From: Deltaproteobacteria bacterium | GTDB lineage: Bacteria; Bdellovibrionota; Bdellovibrionia; JABDDW01 | Direction: 5' to 3' | Length of the DNA stretch: 6,478 nucleotides | Assembly (NCBI GenBank): GCA_013287405.1 | Contig: JABDDW010000078.1 | Coordinates: 1-6,478, forward strand | Shown: positions 1,531 to 6,478 of the stretch, piece by piece | Position numbering within the stretch: the stretch's first letter is position 1 | Layout of the letters: every line of letters starts with the position of its first letter | Program-made: the position numbers and the translations under genes | Notes under the pieces: model-generated | Database searches by the model: none | The model's input: only the letters and a program-made list of their open reading frames with translations | Told to the model about the DNA's origin: nothing

Positions 1531-2580
1531 ATGATGAAAAATTTTTACGACCTTACCTTAAACGAGCTTGAGGACTTCTTCAAAGTCCAGGGTAAACAGC
1601 GCTTTCGGGCCGAACAGCTCTTTCGTTGGGTTTATCAAAAGGGCACGACAAATTTCGATGAAATGTCGAACTTGGCAAAAAGCTTTCGTGAGGAGGTCAA
1701 ATTTCTTCTTGAATTTCAGCTTCCAAAAGTCACCCAACAATTAGATAGCGTCGATGGTACGAGAAAATTTCTTATGGCGGTTGAAGGGGCCAAAGAAATT
1801 GAATCAGTTCTTATTCCCAACGGTGATAGATTGACCTTGTGTGTTTCAAGTGAAGTGGGTTGCGCCATGGGATGCAAGTTCTGTTTTACTTCAAAGATGG
1901 GCCTCATGCGAAGACTTAGTGTCTCTGAAATCGTAGGGCAATATCTGAATGCTGCTCAGAGTCTCGACGACGGCCGGCGCATAACCAATATCGTTTTTAT
2001 GGGGATGGGCGAACCCTTAGATAACGTTCAAAATGTAACAAAGGCCATTGACATCATTCATGATCAAAGAGGGATCGGATTTGCAAGACGAAAGATTACG
2101 GTTTCAACGAGCGGTCTAGCTCCTCAAATAAAACACGTTGCCGAATCCGGGGTGCGGCTCGCAATTAGCCTGAATGCGACCACAAACGAAATACGGGACA
2201 CTATTATGCCCATTAATCGCAAATATCCCCTCGAAGTATTGCTTAGAGCTTGTAAGGAGTACACTGACGAGACAAAAGAAATGATCACTTTTGAATACGT
2301 CCTTCTCAAAGGTGTTAACGATAGCCGAGATGACGCCCATCGCATTGTGAAACTCACTCGGGGAATCCCGAGTAAGATAAATCTTATTCCGTTTAACGAA
2401 CACCCAGGTTCAGGATTTAACAGACCTGCCTCAAAAGAAGTTGGCGAGTTTCAGAAAATTCTTATGAGCCTAGGTAAGCATGTGCTTGTTCGAAAAACCA
2501 TGGGGAGAGATATTTTCGCGGCTTGTGGCCAGCTTCGATCCGCCATGGAAGCTCACCCTAAGAAGATGGCTATCAACTGA
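1531..2580 (+). CDS. rlmN: Dual-specificity RNA methyltransferase RlmN (23S rRNA A2503 / tRNA A37 C2-methylation)
   Basis: This 349-residue radical-SAM enzyme methylates C2 of A2503 in 23S rRNA and, in characterised homologues, A37 of some tRNAs. The 4Fe-4S ligands are in CAMGCKFC (Cys111, Cys115, Cys118; CxxxCxxC). The SAM-contacting GMGEPLDN is at 158-165. Glu91 corresponds to the general base E. coli Glu105. Cys104 in LTLCVSS and Cys332 in AACGQL match E. coli Cys118 and Cys355; the latter becomes the methyl-carrying cysteine. The N-terminal RNA-binding region (about 1-90) has the typical RAEQLFRWVYQKG stretch. All catalytic residues are present and the length is normal. Translation starts at tandem ATGs (1531 and 1534); either could be used, and only a weak AGAG (1517-1520) lies upstream. 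The stop TGA shares its last base with the ATG of the following kinase. Confidence 0.97.
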   Translation: MMKNFYDLTLNELEDFFKVQGKQRFRAEQLFRWVYQKGTTNFDEMSNLAKSFREEVKFLLEFQLPKVTQQLDSVDGTRKFLMAVEGAKEIESVLIPNGDRLTLCVSSEVGCAMGCKFCFTSKMGLMRRLSVSEIVGQYLNAAQSLDDGRRITNIVFMGMGEPLDNVQNVTKAIDIIHDQRGIGFARRKITVSTSGLAPQIKHVAESGVRLAISLNATTNEIRDTIMPINRKYPLEVLLRACKEYTDETKEMITFEYVLLKGVNDSRDDAHRIVKLTRGIPSKINLIPFNEHPGSGFNRPASKEVGEFQKILMSLGKHVLVRKTMGRDIFAACGQLRSAMEAHPKKMAIN

Positions 2581-3491
2581 TGGGCCATATTCTCGTTGTT
2601 GGAAGTCTGGCCTACGACACGGTTAAAACTCCTACGGGAAAAATTGAGGGTGCTTTAGGGGGAAGTGCTAACTACTTTGGCGTAGCAGCGTCGCTCTTTG
2701 CTTCTGTTCGGGTCGTCGGTGTTGTCGGTGAGGACTATCGAGCTGAAGATTCTGAGCTTCTTTCCAAAAAAAACATAGATATTTCTGGGGTAGAGCATAC
2801 GTCAGGAAAGACTTTTCACTGGGCGGGAGAGTATGACAACAATCTTAATGAAGCGAAAACCTTGCGCACTGAATTGAATGTTTTTGCTAACTTTCACCCG
2901 AAGCTTCCTGAGTCATTCAAAGATAGCGAAATTATTTTTCTGGCCAATATTGATCCTGCGTTGCAATTGGAAGTCCTTAACCAGGTGACCCGGCCCAAAG
3001 TGATTGCCGCTGATACGATGAACTTTTGGATCGGAAGTAAGATGAGCGATCTTTTGGTCATATTAAAGCGACTTGATATTTTATTAATTAATGAAGCAGA
3101 AGCCATTCTTTTGACTGAGACATCCAATGCCATTCTTGCAGCAAGAAAAATATCGACTATGGGGCCGAAACATATTGTGATTAAACGAGGGGAATACGGC
3201 GTGGTTATTTTTTCAAATAACAGGTACTTTTGCCTTCCGGCCTATCCCGTAGGCGAGGTCGTTGATCCTACCGGCGCCGGTGATACCTTTGCTGGAGGGT
3301 TTTTGGGTTATATCGGCAAAAGTGGACAACCTCTTAGTCTGGATCTTTTGAAGTCCGCAGCCGTTTATGGGACCCTTTTGGCAAGTTTTACAGTTCAAGA
3401 CTTTAGTCTCAACGCTATCAAAAATTTGACGTTTGAGCAGGTCGAAATTCGTCGACAAGACTTTCGACAAGTCGTCTCCTTTCCCACTTAA
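2580..3491 (+). CDS. PfkB-family carbohydrate/nucleoside kinase, substrate unknown
   Basis: This 303-residue ribokinase-fold protein carries both family signatures. The N-terminal one is GALGGSANYFGVAASLFASV (24-43), with the GG that clamps substrate, then VRVVGVVGED (43-52). The C-terminal one is DPTGAGDTFAGGFLGY (229-244), with TGAG as the anion hole and Asp235 as catalytic base. A conserved-looking ADTMNFWI (144-151) lies in the core, and KRGEYGVVI (202-210) matches the usual K-x-G-x-x-G strand before the active site. The family phosphorylates sugars or nucleosides with ATP. Here the lid region (about 74-105, HWAGEYDNNLNEAKT) does not let me name the substrate. It is not a second RfaE1: the ISPEAPVP signature is missing. 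The start ATG overlaps the rlmN stop (TGATG), with AGAAGATGG (2561-2569) as a possible but distant ribosome site, so translation is probably coupled to rlmN. Confidence 0.9.
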   Translation: MGHILVVGSLAYDTVKTPTGKIEGALGGSANYFGVAASLFASVRVVGVVGEDYRAEDSELLSKKNIDISGVEHTSGKTFHWAGEYDNNLNEAKTLRTELNVFANFHPKLPESFKDSEIIFLANIDPALQLEVLNQVTRPKVIAADTMNFWIGSKMSDLLVILKRLDILLINEAEAILLTETSNAILAARKISTMGPKHIVIKRGEYGVVIFSNNRYFCLPAYPVGEVVDPTGAGDTFAGGFLGYIGKSGQPLSLDLLKSAAVYGTLLASFTVQDFSLNAIKNLTFEQVEIRRQDFRQVVSFPT

Positions 3492-3524: not shown

Positions 3525-4382
3525 ATGAGTAACAAGAAGAAAGATTTGGCCGAAGAACTTGTCGATTTCTTGCTCAAAGAAGATGAACTCAAGAAAGCGA
3601 TTCATGGGCCTGATAAATTGGATGATCTTGACCGCACCAAACCTATTTTGGTGCAAGAGCAGACTCTTGTAGACCTTTCTTCTTCAAAAACTCTACCGAA
3701 GACGGTTTTGATCCCCAGTAACGAGCCGGCTCCGACTCCGTCCCCACCCTCTCCTCCTTCAAAACAATTTGTGAGTCAAAGAGCAAATGTTGTATTCAAC
3801 GAAGTAACTCAGCTTATGGCGGGAACAGAAGCTGTAAAAGTGGCTCAGGCCAGAATTAACACACTAGAAAAGGAAAAAGAAACTCTCCGCACGGAAATCG
3901 ATCTTTTGTTGACTTCAAGCGAAACCATACAGAGGAAGTTTAACGAGCTCAAGACCCTGCACGAGAACCTAGAGCGCAAACACCGTGAAAAAACTGAGAT
4001 TCTCGAAGATGAAAAGGCGGTTATTAAGACGCGGTTGAACGCGAAGGAGGCTGAGCTCAGTGCTTTAAAAAGAGAAAACGGAGATCTACTTTCTCGTTTT
4101 CAAAGTGATTTGAGAAAAATTCGCGTGCGTGAGCGAGAGCTTGAGCACAGGCAAGAAATTATTCGGGCCGAGATGGTCACAGTCGTACGAAGCAAAGATG
4201 AAGTTATAGTCGAGCTCAAGCGGCAATTAGAAAAACTTCATTTTGAACTTGATAATTTTAGAGCGAAGTCTGCCGATATGAATACAAAGTTTAGCGAATT
4301 TAATGATCGAAATCACCGTACGGTTAAAGCTCTCCGACTGGCCTTAAGTGTCTTAGAAACAGGGGATGTTGACGAAAAATGA
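3525..4382 (+). CDS. Coiled-coil protein with proline-rich linker, coupled to the GGDEF gene
   Basis: This is a 285-residue, highly charged, cytosolic-looking protein with no signal peptide or membrane segment. I do not recognise a named family. Residues 1-30 look helical and charged. Residues 33-66 are low in predicted helix and hold three threonine motifs, T38-KPI, T47-LVD and T60-VLI. A Pro/Ser-rich linker (about 67-80) follows. A long Leu/Glu/Lys/Arg-rich heptad-like region (about 103-260) is very probably a coiled coil. The C-terminus ends in a short amphipathic stretch, TVKALRLALSVLETGD (266-281). The ATG at 3525 follows a 33-bp gap and lacks a clear Shine-Dalgarno. The stop overlaps the next gene's start (ATGA, 4379-4382), so the two proteins are probably made together and may interact. 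A scaffold or localisation role for the cyclase is inference. Confidence 0.85.
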   Translation: MSNKKKDLAEELVDFLLKEDELKKAIHGPDKLDDLDRTKPILVQEQTLVDLSSSKTLPKTVLIPSNEPAPTPSPPSPPSKQFVSQRANVVFNEVTQLMAGTEAVKVAQARINTLEKEKETLRTEIDLLLTSSETIQRKFNELKTLHENLERKHREKTEILEDEKAVIKTRLNAKEAELSALKRENGDLLSRFQSDLRKIRVRERELEHRQEIIRAEMVTVVRSKDEVIVELKRQLEKLHFELDNFRAKSADMNTKFSEFNDRNHRTVKALRLALSVLETGDVDEK

Positions 4383-5758
4383 AAACGAGAGTCATTTTTT
4401 TAGATGACGAGCCCAAAACAGCCCAAAGGCTCCAGAGGATCCTCGAAAGTCACGGGTATTCTGTTGGAACACCAGGAACTCTTGAAGAAACATTTAAAGA
4501 GGTCAATGCGAACGGAGCTGAAATCCTCATCCATTCGGCTCATCGTTCAAACACCTACAGTGAATTGTGCGAGGGTTTTTTTAATCAATACCCCCAATTT
4601 CCAAGTCTCCATTTGGGGACTGGGCCATCCGCAGAAACCTATGAAAAAAATCTAAAGGGTGCCTTTCATTCTAAAATGAGACCCCTCACTCCGCAAAGAG
4701 AGTTCTTAACCCGGGTGAGGCGACTTATCTTTCTCGGTCGACTGAGTCGTCAGAACTATGCCTTGTCGAGAACCGTCAAATTGCAAAATAAAATTGATCA
4801 GTTATTTGAAACCTTGGATGCAGGTGAGCTTAAAGAGCGCACCGTAAAATTTTTCGATGAGGAGTTTAAAGCCAAGAACGTATATTATTTAAGTGTTGGA
4901 GGATATGGCCACTTTTTACAAGAAATGTGGAAAGTAGCTACAGTTATGCCTTTGGATCAAAATCCGTTAAAGCATCAACTTTGCTCTTCAAAGAAATCCT
5001 CTGAGACCGAACTCAGCGGTATCTTGGCCAGAATTTCAGGTCGTCTCCCTCCAGGATGGGAATTCAGAAACAGCCGAACCTGTTTGGACGATATCGTCTT
5101 TATTCCCCTTGTGGGGAGTGCTTCAAAAAAAATCTGTGGTCATGTCATGATGGTTGAGCCGACATTATACGGGGATCAAGCTTTAGATAAGACACTTCCT
5201 TATTTAACGCGGGTCTTGGGTCGCCATTTCGATCATGCACAGAATTTTGCCAATGCAAAAAGCCTCAATTACATGGACGACCTTACGGAACTCTATAATC
5301 AACGCTATCTAAAACTTGTTCTGGATAAAGAGATCAATCGGGCAGCCAGGACAAAGACCAGCTTTTCCGTTTTGTTTATGGATATAGATCATTTTAAACA
5401 AGTTAATGATACAAAAGGGCATGTGGTTGGGAGTAAGGTCTTAGTTCAAATGGCTGAGATCCTGAATCAACATATTCGAGCGACAGATTATGGGTTTAGA
5501 TACGGTGGCGATGAGTTCATACTTATTTTGGTAGGCTCAGAAAGCCAGCAGTCTCTAGGTGTTGCAGAAAGAATAAGAAAACAAGTTGAATCCAGCGTTT
5601 TTCAAATAGATGGAGTCGAGATTCGATTGACGCTCAGTATTGGAATTGCCACTTATCCCGATCACGCTCACACGAAAGAGGAAATACTTGAGCTTGCTGA
5701 CCGAGCCATGTATTGTGGAAAAAATAAATCTCGCAATGTTGTCTATGTCGCAAGTTAA
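4379..5758 (+). CDS. Pseudo-receiver/GAF-like/GGDEF nucleotidyl cyclase, candidate Hypr (cGAMP-type) enzyme
   Basis: This 459-residue soluble protein has three parts. Residues 1-118 form a receiver-like domain: the acidic pair Asp9-Asp10 is kept, but the phospho-acceptor position in EILIHSAH (48-55) is Ser53 or His52, not Asp, and the usual KP is Arg101-Pro102. Residues about 130-290 resemble a GAF domain. A signalling helix and DLTELYNQRYL (301-311) lead into the catalytic domain (about 295-459). In that domain the metal Asp335 (MDIDHFK), Lys340, Asn343, the RYGGDEF signature (374-380) and an RxxD I-site (Arg367/Asp370, five residues before GGDEF) are intact. The guanine-contacting Asp (PleD Asp344) is Ser352 in GHVVGSKV. 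Canonical GGDEF enzymes make c-di-GMP from two GTP; this Asp-to-Ser change marks the Hypr class, which accepts ATP and makes cGAMP. No EAL or HD-GYP domain is present. The start is set by the ATGA overlap with the coiled-coil gene. Confidence 0.93.
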   Translation: MKTRVIFLDDEPKTAQRLQRILESHGYSVGTPGTLEETFKEVNANGAEILIHSAHRSNTYSELCEGFFNQYPQFPSLHLGTGPSAETYEKNLKGAFHSKMRPLTPQREFLTRVRRLIFLGRLSRQNYALSRTVKLQNKIDQLFETLDAGELKERTVKFFDEEFKAKNVYYLSVGGYGHFLQEMWKVATVMPLDQNPLKHQLCSSKKSSETELSGILARISGRLPPGWEFRNSRTCLDDIVFIPLVGSASKKICGHVMMVEPTLYGDQALDKTLPYLTRVLGRHFDHAQNFANAKSLNYMDDLTELYNQRYLKLVLDKEINRAARTKTSFSVLFMDIDHFKQVNDTKGHVVGSKVLVQMAEILNQHIRATDYGFRYGGDEFILILVGSESQQSLGVAERIRKQVESSVFQIDGVEIRLTLSIGIATYPDHAHTKEEILELADRAMYCGKNKSRNVVYVAS

Positions 5759-5763
5759 GAAAT

Positions 5764-6478
5764 ATGAAAAGACTCAAGCTCGTCGTAAGTGATTTTCACC
5801 TGGGTAAAGGCCACATCCTTTCCGACGGATCTCTGAATATTCTTGAAGAATTTTATTATGACGATAAATTTATCGAATTTTTAGACTACTACTCTACCGG
5901 GGAATTTACAGACGTCGAAGTTGAAATCATTATAAATGGCGATTTTCTTAACATGCTACAAACCGATTATAAGGGACACTTCACGACTGTTATCACTGAG
6001 TCCATTGATTTGTATAAAATAAAAACCATTGTTGAAGGGCATAAGGGAGTATTTGATGCTCTGAGAAGGTTTGCCTCTCGCCCAGGAAAAACTCTGACCT
6101 ATATTGTTGGAAATCACGATCAGGGAATGCTGTGGCCGAAATGTCGTGAATACTTTGATGAAGTTTGTGGGAGTCGACTCAATTTTAAAAATATAGTCTA
6201 CTTTTTTGATGGGGTGCATATCGAACACGGGCACCAGCATGAGGCCGCAAATAGAGTCAATCCGAAGAAATTCTTTTTAAAACAAGATCTTCCTGAACCT
6301 ATTCTAAATTTGCCATGGGCTTCATTCTTTTTTATCAATTTTGTTTTAGATATAAAGACTCAAATGCCCTATATCGACAAAGTGCGTCCCTTTAGCTATT
6401 TCATACGTTGGAGTATCGTCAATGATTTTTGGTTTAGTGTTAAAACGATCGGACGACTCGTTTGGCATTTCTTTGTTA
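5764..6478 (+). CDS. Calcineurin-like metallophosphoesterase, 3' end outside the window
   Basis: The frame is open from ATG 5764 to the right edge (238 complete codons, no stop). The metallophosphoesterase motifs appear in order: SDFHLG (Asp10, His12), NGDF (Asp60), GNHD (Asn117, His118, Asp119) and IEHGHQHE (His155, His157, His159). The first four metal-binding blocks are thus present, and the final GHxH block should lie past the window edge. Spacing and the HLG start loosely resemble LpxH-type UDP-2,3-diacylglucosamine hydrolases, but the HGH block differs from the LpxH HGD and I would not name a substrate. Residues about 180-197 and 208-238 are rich in Phe, Trp and Ile and may form an interfacial or membrane-contacting insert. 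The start is 5 nt after the GGDEF stop, with TTAAGAAAT as a weak ribosome site, so co-transcription with the cyclase is likely. Confidence 0.88.
   Translation, partial: MKRLKLVVSDFHLGKGHILSDGSLNILEEFYYDDKFIEFLDYYSTGEFTDVEVEIIINGDFLNMLQTDYKGHFTTVITESIDLYKIKTIVEGHKGVFDALRRFASRPGKTLTYIVGNHDQGMLWPKCREYFDEVCGSRLNFKNIVYFFDGVHIEHGHQHEAANRVNPKKFFLKQDLPEPILNLPWASFFFINFVLDIKTQMPYIDKVRPFSYFIRWSIVNDFWFSVKTIGRLVWHFFV

Follow-up and report, generated by a model that had tools for sequence, protein, structure and literature searches.

A gene of 459 codons in the stretch of DNA analysed here (the window: 6,478 nucleotides, positions 1 to 6,478 of contig JABDDW010000078.1 in assembly GCA_013287405.1, from a member of the Bdellovibrionota) very probably encodes a Hypr GGDEF enzyme that makes mainly 3′,3′-cGAMP. 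It would represent a second cGAMP-synthase family of its phylum, present in two classes, with its own conserved neighbourhood, and with no copy at that locus in the genome that we take for that of HD100. The gene and the residues on which this reading depends are as follows.

4379..5758, forward strand: predicted Hypr-type GGDEF gene, 459 amino acids, arranged as degenerate receiver, middle domain and GGDEF domain (open reading frame; Pfam GGDEF; best PDB match GmGacA 6d9m).
5270..5737, forward strand: GGDEF domain, residues 298-453, the sole GGDEF domain of the 459-residue frame (Pfam E 2.6e-45).
5300..5302, forward strand: Gln308, cross-dimer position, corresponding to Tyr304 of GmGacA and to Arg in PleD and DosC (alignment).
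5432..5434, forward strand: Ser352 (AGT), nucleobase-selectivity position, corresponding to PleD Asp344 and GmGacA Ser348 (HMMER alignments, homologue alignment).
5477..5488, forward strand: I-site RATD, Arg367-Asp370 (alignment).
5504..5518, forward strand: GGDEF motif, residues 376-380, with Asp as its third residue (alignment).

The preliminary description of this DNA had placed the serine of codon 352 at the guanine-contact position of PleD, with Asp335, Asn343 and the GGDEF motif intact, and the alignments bear this out. When the protein is aligned by HMMER with PleD (9g85) and with the GacA domain of Geobacter metallireducens (6d9m), there are no gaps around codon 352: GHVVGSKVL of the 459-residue protein lies opposite GHDIGDEVL in PleD and GHLVGSQVL in GacA, the Ser stays at the guanine-contact site, and no Asp is brought into it. 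A misalignment hiding an Asp at the selectivity site is ruled out by the absence of gaps. Asp335, Asn343, Asp344, the GGDEF motif (376-380), Arg367, Asp370 and Arg398 (assigned by spacing to the position of PleD Arg390) are all identical in GacA. When all PDB sequences were searched, the top match was the Hypr enzyme GmGacA (6d9m, E 1.3e-42), followed by DosC (E 9.2e-36) and PleD (E 8.5e-28), and the identity across the GGDEF domain is 48.8% to GmGacA, 42.9% to DosC, 40.4% to PleD and 38.5% to Bd0367. The preliminary description had also named GacA, Bd0367 and enzymes of Myxococcus as members of the cGAMP class, in agreement with published reports (PMC6456294, PMC9140294; for M. xanthus GacA and GacB, PMC8844925). 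A phage origin of the gene was considered and rejected: 106 phage records match, and none covers more than 80% of the query.

Hallberg 2016 is reportedly the founding Hypr paper. Three determinants of Hypr activity have been reported, i.e., Ser or Thr at the selectivity site, a GGDEF rather than a GGEEF motif, and the residue at the cross-dimer position (PMC6456294). According to the same source, Ser combined with GGEEF is inactive (the Goldilocks rule), most diguanylate cyclases carry Arg as the cross-dimer residue, and mostly cGAMP is made by those Hypr enzymes in which this residue is Tyr, Ser, Ala or Gln (PMC6456294). The 459-residue protein fits all three determinants, with Ser352, GGDEF and the non-Arg residue Gln308. 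The assignment as a Hypr-type GGDEF, which the preliminary description had based on the serine, is thereby well supported at the level of sequence, as Gln308 and the Asp of the GGDEF motif, a requirement for the Ser, add strength to it. In the mechanism proposed, Ser352 would contact either purine, the Asp of the GGDEF motif would hold magnesium at the distance required by a Ser, and Gln308 would stand where an Arg would give preference to guanine across the dimer. As the I-site is intact, product inhibition would be expected.

Ser alone does not prove a cGAMP product, because in GSU3350 the change of D to S in an enzyme with a GGDEF motif left a pure diguanylate cyclase (PMC6456294). By analogy, the protein could be an active GGDEF enzyme making essentially only c-di-GMP in the cell, with Ser352 tolerated because the motif is GGDEF. 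This we consider improbable: the Arg is replaced by Gln308, Ser or Thr is the published Hypr signature (PMC9140294), and the Ser is strictly kept, Thr being its sole replacement among the 60 loci read from a second class of the phylum.

Conservation among homologues is consistent with the reading as a cGAMP synthase. Of 7996 candidates scored in a homologue search, 1067 passed the threshold of E <= 1e-30, and the best 120 of the 1067 (the 459-residue protein itself and 119 others, the other 947 lying outside the alignment) were aligned. In these best 120 rows, Ser352 and Gln308 are invariant, and the motif is GGDE[F/Y] throughout, its last residue being F in 90 rows and Y in the other 30. Such constancy speaks strongly for selection on the triad of Ser, Gln and GGDE. 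The general-base Glu379 and the other catalytic residues examined are also invariant in the best 120 of 1067 rows, which argues against a catalytically dead GGDEF domain serving as a receptor for cyclic dinucleotides or as a scaffold, an explanation that would suit the degenerate receiver and the coiled-coil protein encoded next door but is highly improbable.

The Goldilocks pairing was also followed across 206 aligned GGDEF domains; as the rows share ancestry and include some duplicates, the outcome is a consistency check and not a test of independence. Ser or Thr occupies the selectivity site in 118 of them, and all 118 have Asp as the third residue of the motif (one of the 118, L106, is degenerate and without a GGDEF motif). 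Asp occupies the selectivity site in 87, where the third motif residue is Glu in 79 and Asp in 8, and the one remaining domain combines Asn with Glu. L106 (from G006) and L109 (from G004) are degenerate GGDEF proteins with open frames longer than 500 amino acids and are possibly CdgA-like.

The part of the protein that precedes the GGDEF domain has the following features.

4382..4738, forward strand: degenerate receiver-like domain, residues 2-120 (profile comparison with Bd0367-type receivers, probability 97.6%).
4535-4537, forward strand: Ser53 in place of the phospho-acceptor Asp (same profile alignment).
4781..5254, forward strand: middle domain, residues 135-292, possibly GAF-like, a weak match (profile against a Nitrospirota GAF domain, probability 36.8%).

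The receiver-like domain was recognised by comparing a profile of residues 1-125 with the receivers of Bd0367-type proteins; as controls, the middle domain against the receiver gave 0.3% and the N-terminus against GAF gave 0.6%. Pfam Response_reg matches the N-terminus with E 0.022, below the curated cut-off. At column 53 of the best 120 of 1067 homologues, a residue is present in 81 rows and is never Asp, and the other 39 rows have a gap. GacA with D52A is reported to be still active, and therefore a receiver lacking the Asp can go with a functional enzyme. Control of the enzyme would thus probably not be by phosphorylation of an Asp. The middle domain may possibly have a GAF-like fold, to which a weak Pfam match to GAF in 2 of 73 family members corresponds. 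The product of the 459-residue protein, its regulation and a possible link with the DgcB pathway are what we infer.

The distribution of the gene was determined in two classes of the phylum. In the first, the class of G003, a Bdellovibrionaceae genome (143 genomes in the class), the 459-residue type of protein matches 41 genomes at the threshold of E <= 1e-35. All 41 copies have Ser at the selectivity site and Asp as the third residue of the motif, and at position 308 Gln is found in 38 copies, His in 2 and Tyr in 1. Ser352 is not a product of chance or of a sequencing slip, since Ser is found in the 119 homologues and in these 41 copies, whereas Asp stands at the selectivity position of the DgcB-type domains that these loci encode a few genes further downstream. 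In the second, the class of G007, a Bacteriovoracaceae genome (129 genomes in the class), a Thr-type relative matches 115 genomes at E <= 1e-25, the weakest of which lie outside the loci read and may belong to other families. Sixty loci were read (the top 30 plus a selection of 30 among the remaining matches with E <= 1e-35): the selectivity site is Thr in 35 and Ser in 25, the third motif residue is Asp in all 60, and position 308 is His in 3, Ser in 3 and Lys in 1. The departures from Gln at position 308 in both classes weigh against the cGAMP reading. The frequent occurrence of Thr for Ser in this class (L287-L346) provides a natural Ser/Thr contrast at one locus. Outside the phylum, the GGDEF proteins of 23 Nitrospirota loci (L009-L031) have Ser as their selectivity residue, Asp in the motif, and a cross-dimer residue that is mostly Thr and otherwise Ser or Leu; L009, the one scanned, has GAF and GGDEF domains in Pfam. 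By their residues these proteins are a further Hypr-like family, on which no paper was found in the literature search.

The enzyme of the phylum with which the 459-residue protein invites comparison is Bd0367 (DgcA), which makes cGAMP and controls gliding (PMC9140294). The genome G011 was taken as that of HD100, as it holds a protein of receiver and GGDEF domain with Ser214, Asp74 and a Met at the cross-dimer position, which corresponds to the published Bd0367 (PMC9140294). A pattern derived from the printed primers for Bd0367 gave 0 matches in the 143 genomes (the printed primers could be those of a recoded version), and the gene was located afterwards by protein search. A commentary (PMC9302825) prints the residue as S124, whereas the research paper (PMC9140294) and the sequence both give Ser214.

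Bd0367 and the 459-residue protein share the Hypr Ser, the GGDEF motif and the phylum. However, the cross-dimer residue is Met170 in Bd0367 and Gln308 here, the receiver of Bd0367 is intact with Asp74 where the 459-residue protein has Ser53, and the two genes differ in N-terminus, locus and clade. In a tree of 102 thinned domains (out of 206 rows, 176 of them different), calculated with positions 308, 352 and 378 masked, the Bd0367-type rows, including Bd0367 itself (L236), form one clade (support 98) and 22 Nitrospirota Ser-type rows form another (support 99); the rows of the 459-residue family lie in a third region (support 88-90), which also holds the Thr-type L087 and L189, a copy with His308. 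All Ser/Thr rows except the long-branched L106 fall on one side of the tree, GacA among them without a firm place; the support of this side is modest (86) and the Asp enzyme DosC lies inside it, which weighs against the Hypr assignment. The Bd0367-type protein matches 121 of the 143 genomes of the first class at E <= 1e-50, and in the 47 genomes in which the gene was read, Met, Ser and Asp occupy the three sites in all 47. Of the 41 genomes with the gene of the 459-residue type, 37 also carry a Bd0367-type gene elsewhere, the exceptions being G003, G006, G126 and G143.

Orthology with Bd0367 is therefore rejected on the grounds of Gln308, Ser53, the separate clade, the gene order of the dgcB locus and the co-existence of both genes. 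The preliminary description had named Bd0367 as a relative; a kinship beyond the enzyme class is not supported. It had also suggested a control of surface motility, which cannot be transferred from Bd0367 as a direct kinship between the two lacks support. That the gene is the local counterpart of Bd0367, controlling gliding and prey exit, is suggested by the common Ser signature, the phylum and the reported activity of Bd0367, but with Bd0367 in a clade of its own, a Bd0367-type gene already present elsewhere in most of these genomes, and the gene itself in the dgcB locus, it is scarcely credible.

The neighbouring genes in the window are as follows.

1531..2580, forward strand: rlmN, in the conserved gene row (Pfam, gene order in relatives).
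2580..3491, forward strand: PfkB-family sugar kinase, in the conserved gene row (Pfam, gene order in relatives).
3525..4382, forward strand: coiled-coil gene, whose stop overlaps the start of the Hypr gene (ATGA, 4379-4382) (open reading frame; upstream neighbour in 41 of 41 genomes).
5764..6477, forward strand: calcineurin-like phosphoesterase, cut by the end of the window, equivalent to Bd0740 (Pfam Metallophos in a full-length relative).

The nearest relatives share the row of rfaE, rlmN, pfkB, coiled-coil gene, Hypr gene and phosphoesterase gene, some of them lacking pfkB or other members of it. Given the ATGA overlap and the 5 bases between the Hypr stop and the phosphoesterase start, the coiled-coil, Hypr and phosphoesterase genes are probably co-transcribed. 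By tblastn (E <= 1e-3), the coiled-coil gene lies upstream and the phosphoesterase gene downstream in all 41 first-class loci. In the second class both flanking genes are found in 27 of the 30 best loci and in 10 of the 30 others, counting only rows with the phosphoesterase, as the coiled-coil matches were loose (E 0.01) and may include the coiled coil of the enzyme itself. A second phosphoesterase, 42-48% identical to that of the window, is present in three near relatives (G001:C147, G002:C20, G144:C66).

In the 13 first-class loci with enough flanking DNA (L001-L008, L170, L240-L243), a gene that matches full-length DgcB lies downstream on the same strand in all 13, preceded by PGI in 6, and both DgcB genes scanned (L170, L003) have FHA and GGDEF domains in Pfam. 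We infer from these relatives that dgcB follows the phosphoesterase gene of the window, which ends before that point. Within the available DNA there was no DgcB match in the second-class locus L032 or in L244, a locus without the Hypr gene. In one genome (G082, L243:1257-3129), the Hypr gene has a tandem pair of DgcB-like genes downstream.

The genome taken as HD100 has the row coiled-coil gene, phosphoesterase, PGI (408 amino acids) and DgcB, which corresponds to the published Bd0740 (calcineurin-like), Bd0741 (PGI, 408 amino acids) and Bd0742 (DgcB) (PMC6733907, PMC8354745), and its phosphoesterase is 60% identical to that of the window. The slot between the coiled-coil and phosphoesterase genes is empty of a Hypr gene: the coiled-coil frame, without its stop codon, extends to L237:6468, and with a possible start of the phosphoesterase frame at 6473 there is no room for a Hypr gene. 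Thirty phosphoesterase loci were fetched, 21 of them from genomes without the gene of the 459-residue type; of the 17 of these that were read, 16 have a coiled-coil match directly upstream of the phosphoesterase gene, and in the 17th (L188) the upstream frame resembles the coiled-coil gene by eye.

A phosphoesterase tree in which the Hypr gene is present for 42 entries and absent for 22 (a sample, mostly of the most window-like sequences) needs three gain or loss changes of the Hypr gene, and the genomes without it lie among those with it. Because the genomes are interleaved and the gene occupies the same place in the second class, loss of the Hypr gene in the Bdellovibrio line appears to be the simpler reading, although this is not proof. 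Beyond this, a wider scenario can be put forward tentatively and is on balance doubtful: an ancestor of the Bdellovibrionota may have had a dedicated cGAMP synthase gene, flanked by the coiled-coil gene and the Bd0740-like gene and at a later stage beside dgcB, with cGAMP and c-di-GMP made from neighbouring genes around prey contact, and the line of HD100 may have lost it and come to depend on Bd0367 alone. If this were true, work on HD100 would miss a widespread cGAMP system of its phylum. In the relatives, the gene lies near the prey-invasion gene dgcB, at a spot which is empty in the model species, and it is this neighbourhood in the relatives alone that hints at a possible role in predation.

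Riboswitches were considered as possible receptors. In the window there is no Rfam match at the gathering score. GEMM-I riboswitches match in 90 of the 143 first-class genomes (28 candidates scored and one match taken per genome), from which, together with one weak match from the second class, 32 loci were fetched (31 + 1), the weak matches L173-L175 lying outside this set. In all 29 that were readable (i.e., without L150, L164 and L172), the base at what we take to be position 20, the selectivity base, is G, as in the c-di-GMP type, and no cGAMP-type (A20) GEMM riboswitch is among these 29 loci of relatives. These counts, like the case of GSU3350, favour a product of c-di-GMP alone, and a pathway from the 459-residue enzyme to a riboswitch, as for GacA, is not supported by the loci read.

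Hypr enzymes have been estimated at 0.17% of GGDEF domains (PMC9140294). Bd0367 is the sole Hypr enzyme of the phylum found described in the literature searched, and no report that places another Hypr family in Bdellovibrionota, or a Hypr gene in the dgcB locus, was found in that search of titles and abstract openings, which most subscription papers lie outside. The second family makes it possible to test how the work is split when a small genome has two cGAMP synthases, and whether the DgcB step involves cGAMP.

The closest known system is GacA of Geobacter (GSU1658 / Gmet_1914, 6d9m), which shares with the 459-residue protein the selectivity Ser, the GGDEF motif, a non-Arg cross-dimer residue, an intact I-site and a receiver-like N-terminus, and which, comparing the GGDEF domain only, has the highest identity of the five compared and is the best PDB match. 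The two differ in that the cross-dimer residue is Tyr in GacA and Gln here, in that the receiver here is without the phospho-acceptor Asp, and in that no cGAMP-type GEMM riboswitch was read in the relatives, unlike in the GacA pathway. DgcB (Bd0742) is the neighbour in the same locus of the relatives, encoded on the same strand a few genes further downstream, and also has a GGDEF domain, but with Asp and GGEEF and an FHA input domain, as a c-di-GMP enzyme, whereas the 459-residue protein has Ser and GGDEF. The presence of two Hypr enzymes in one genome can be likened, by description, to Myxococcus xanthus, in which GacA and GacB are both reported cGAMP synthases (PMC8844925). The class of the enzyme is known, its family is distinct from that of Bd0367, and its setting beside dgcB is, as far as was found, new.
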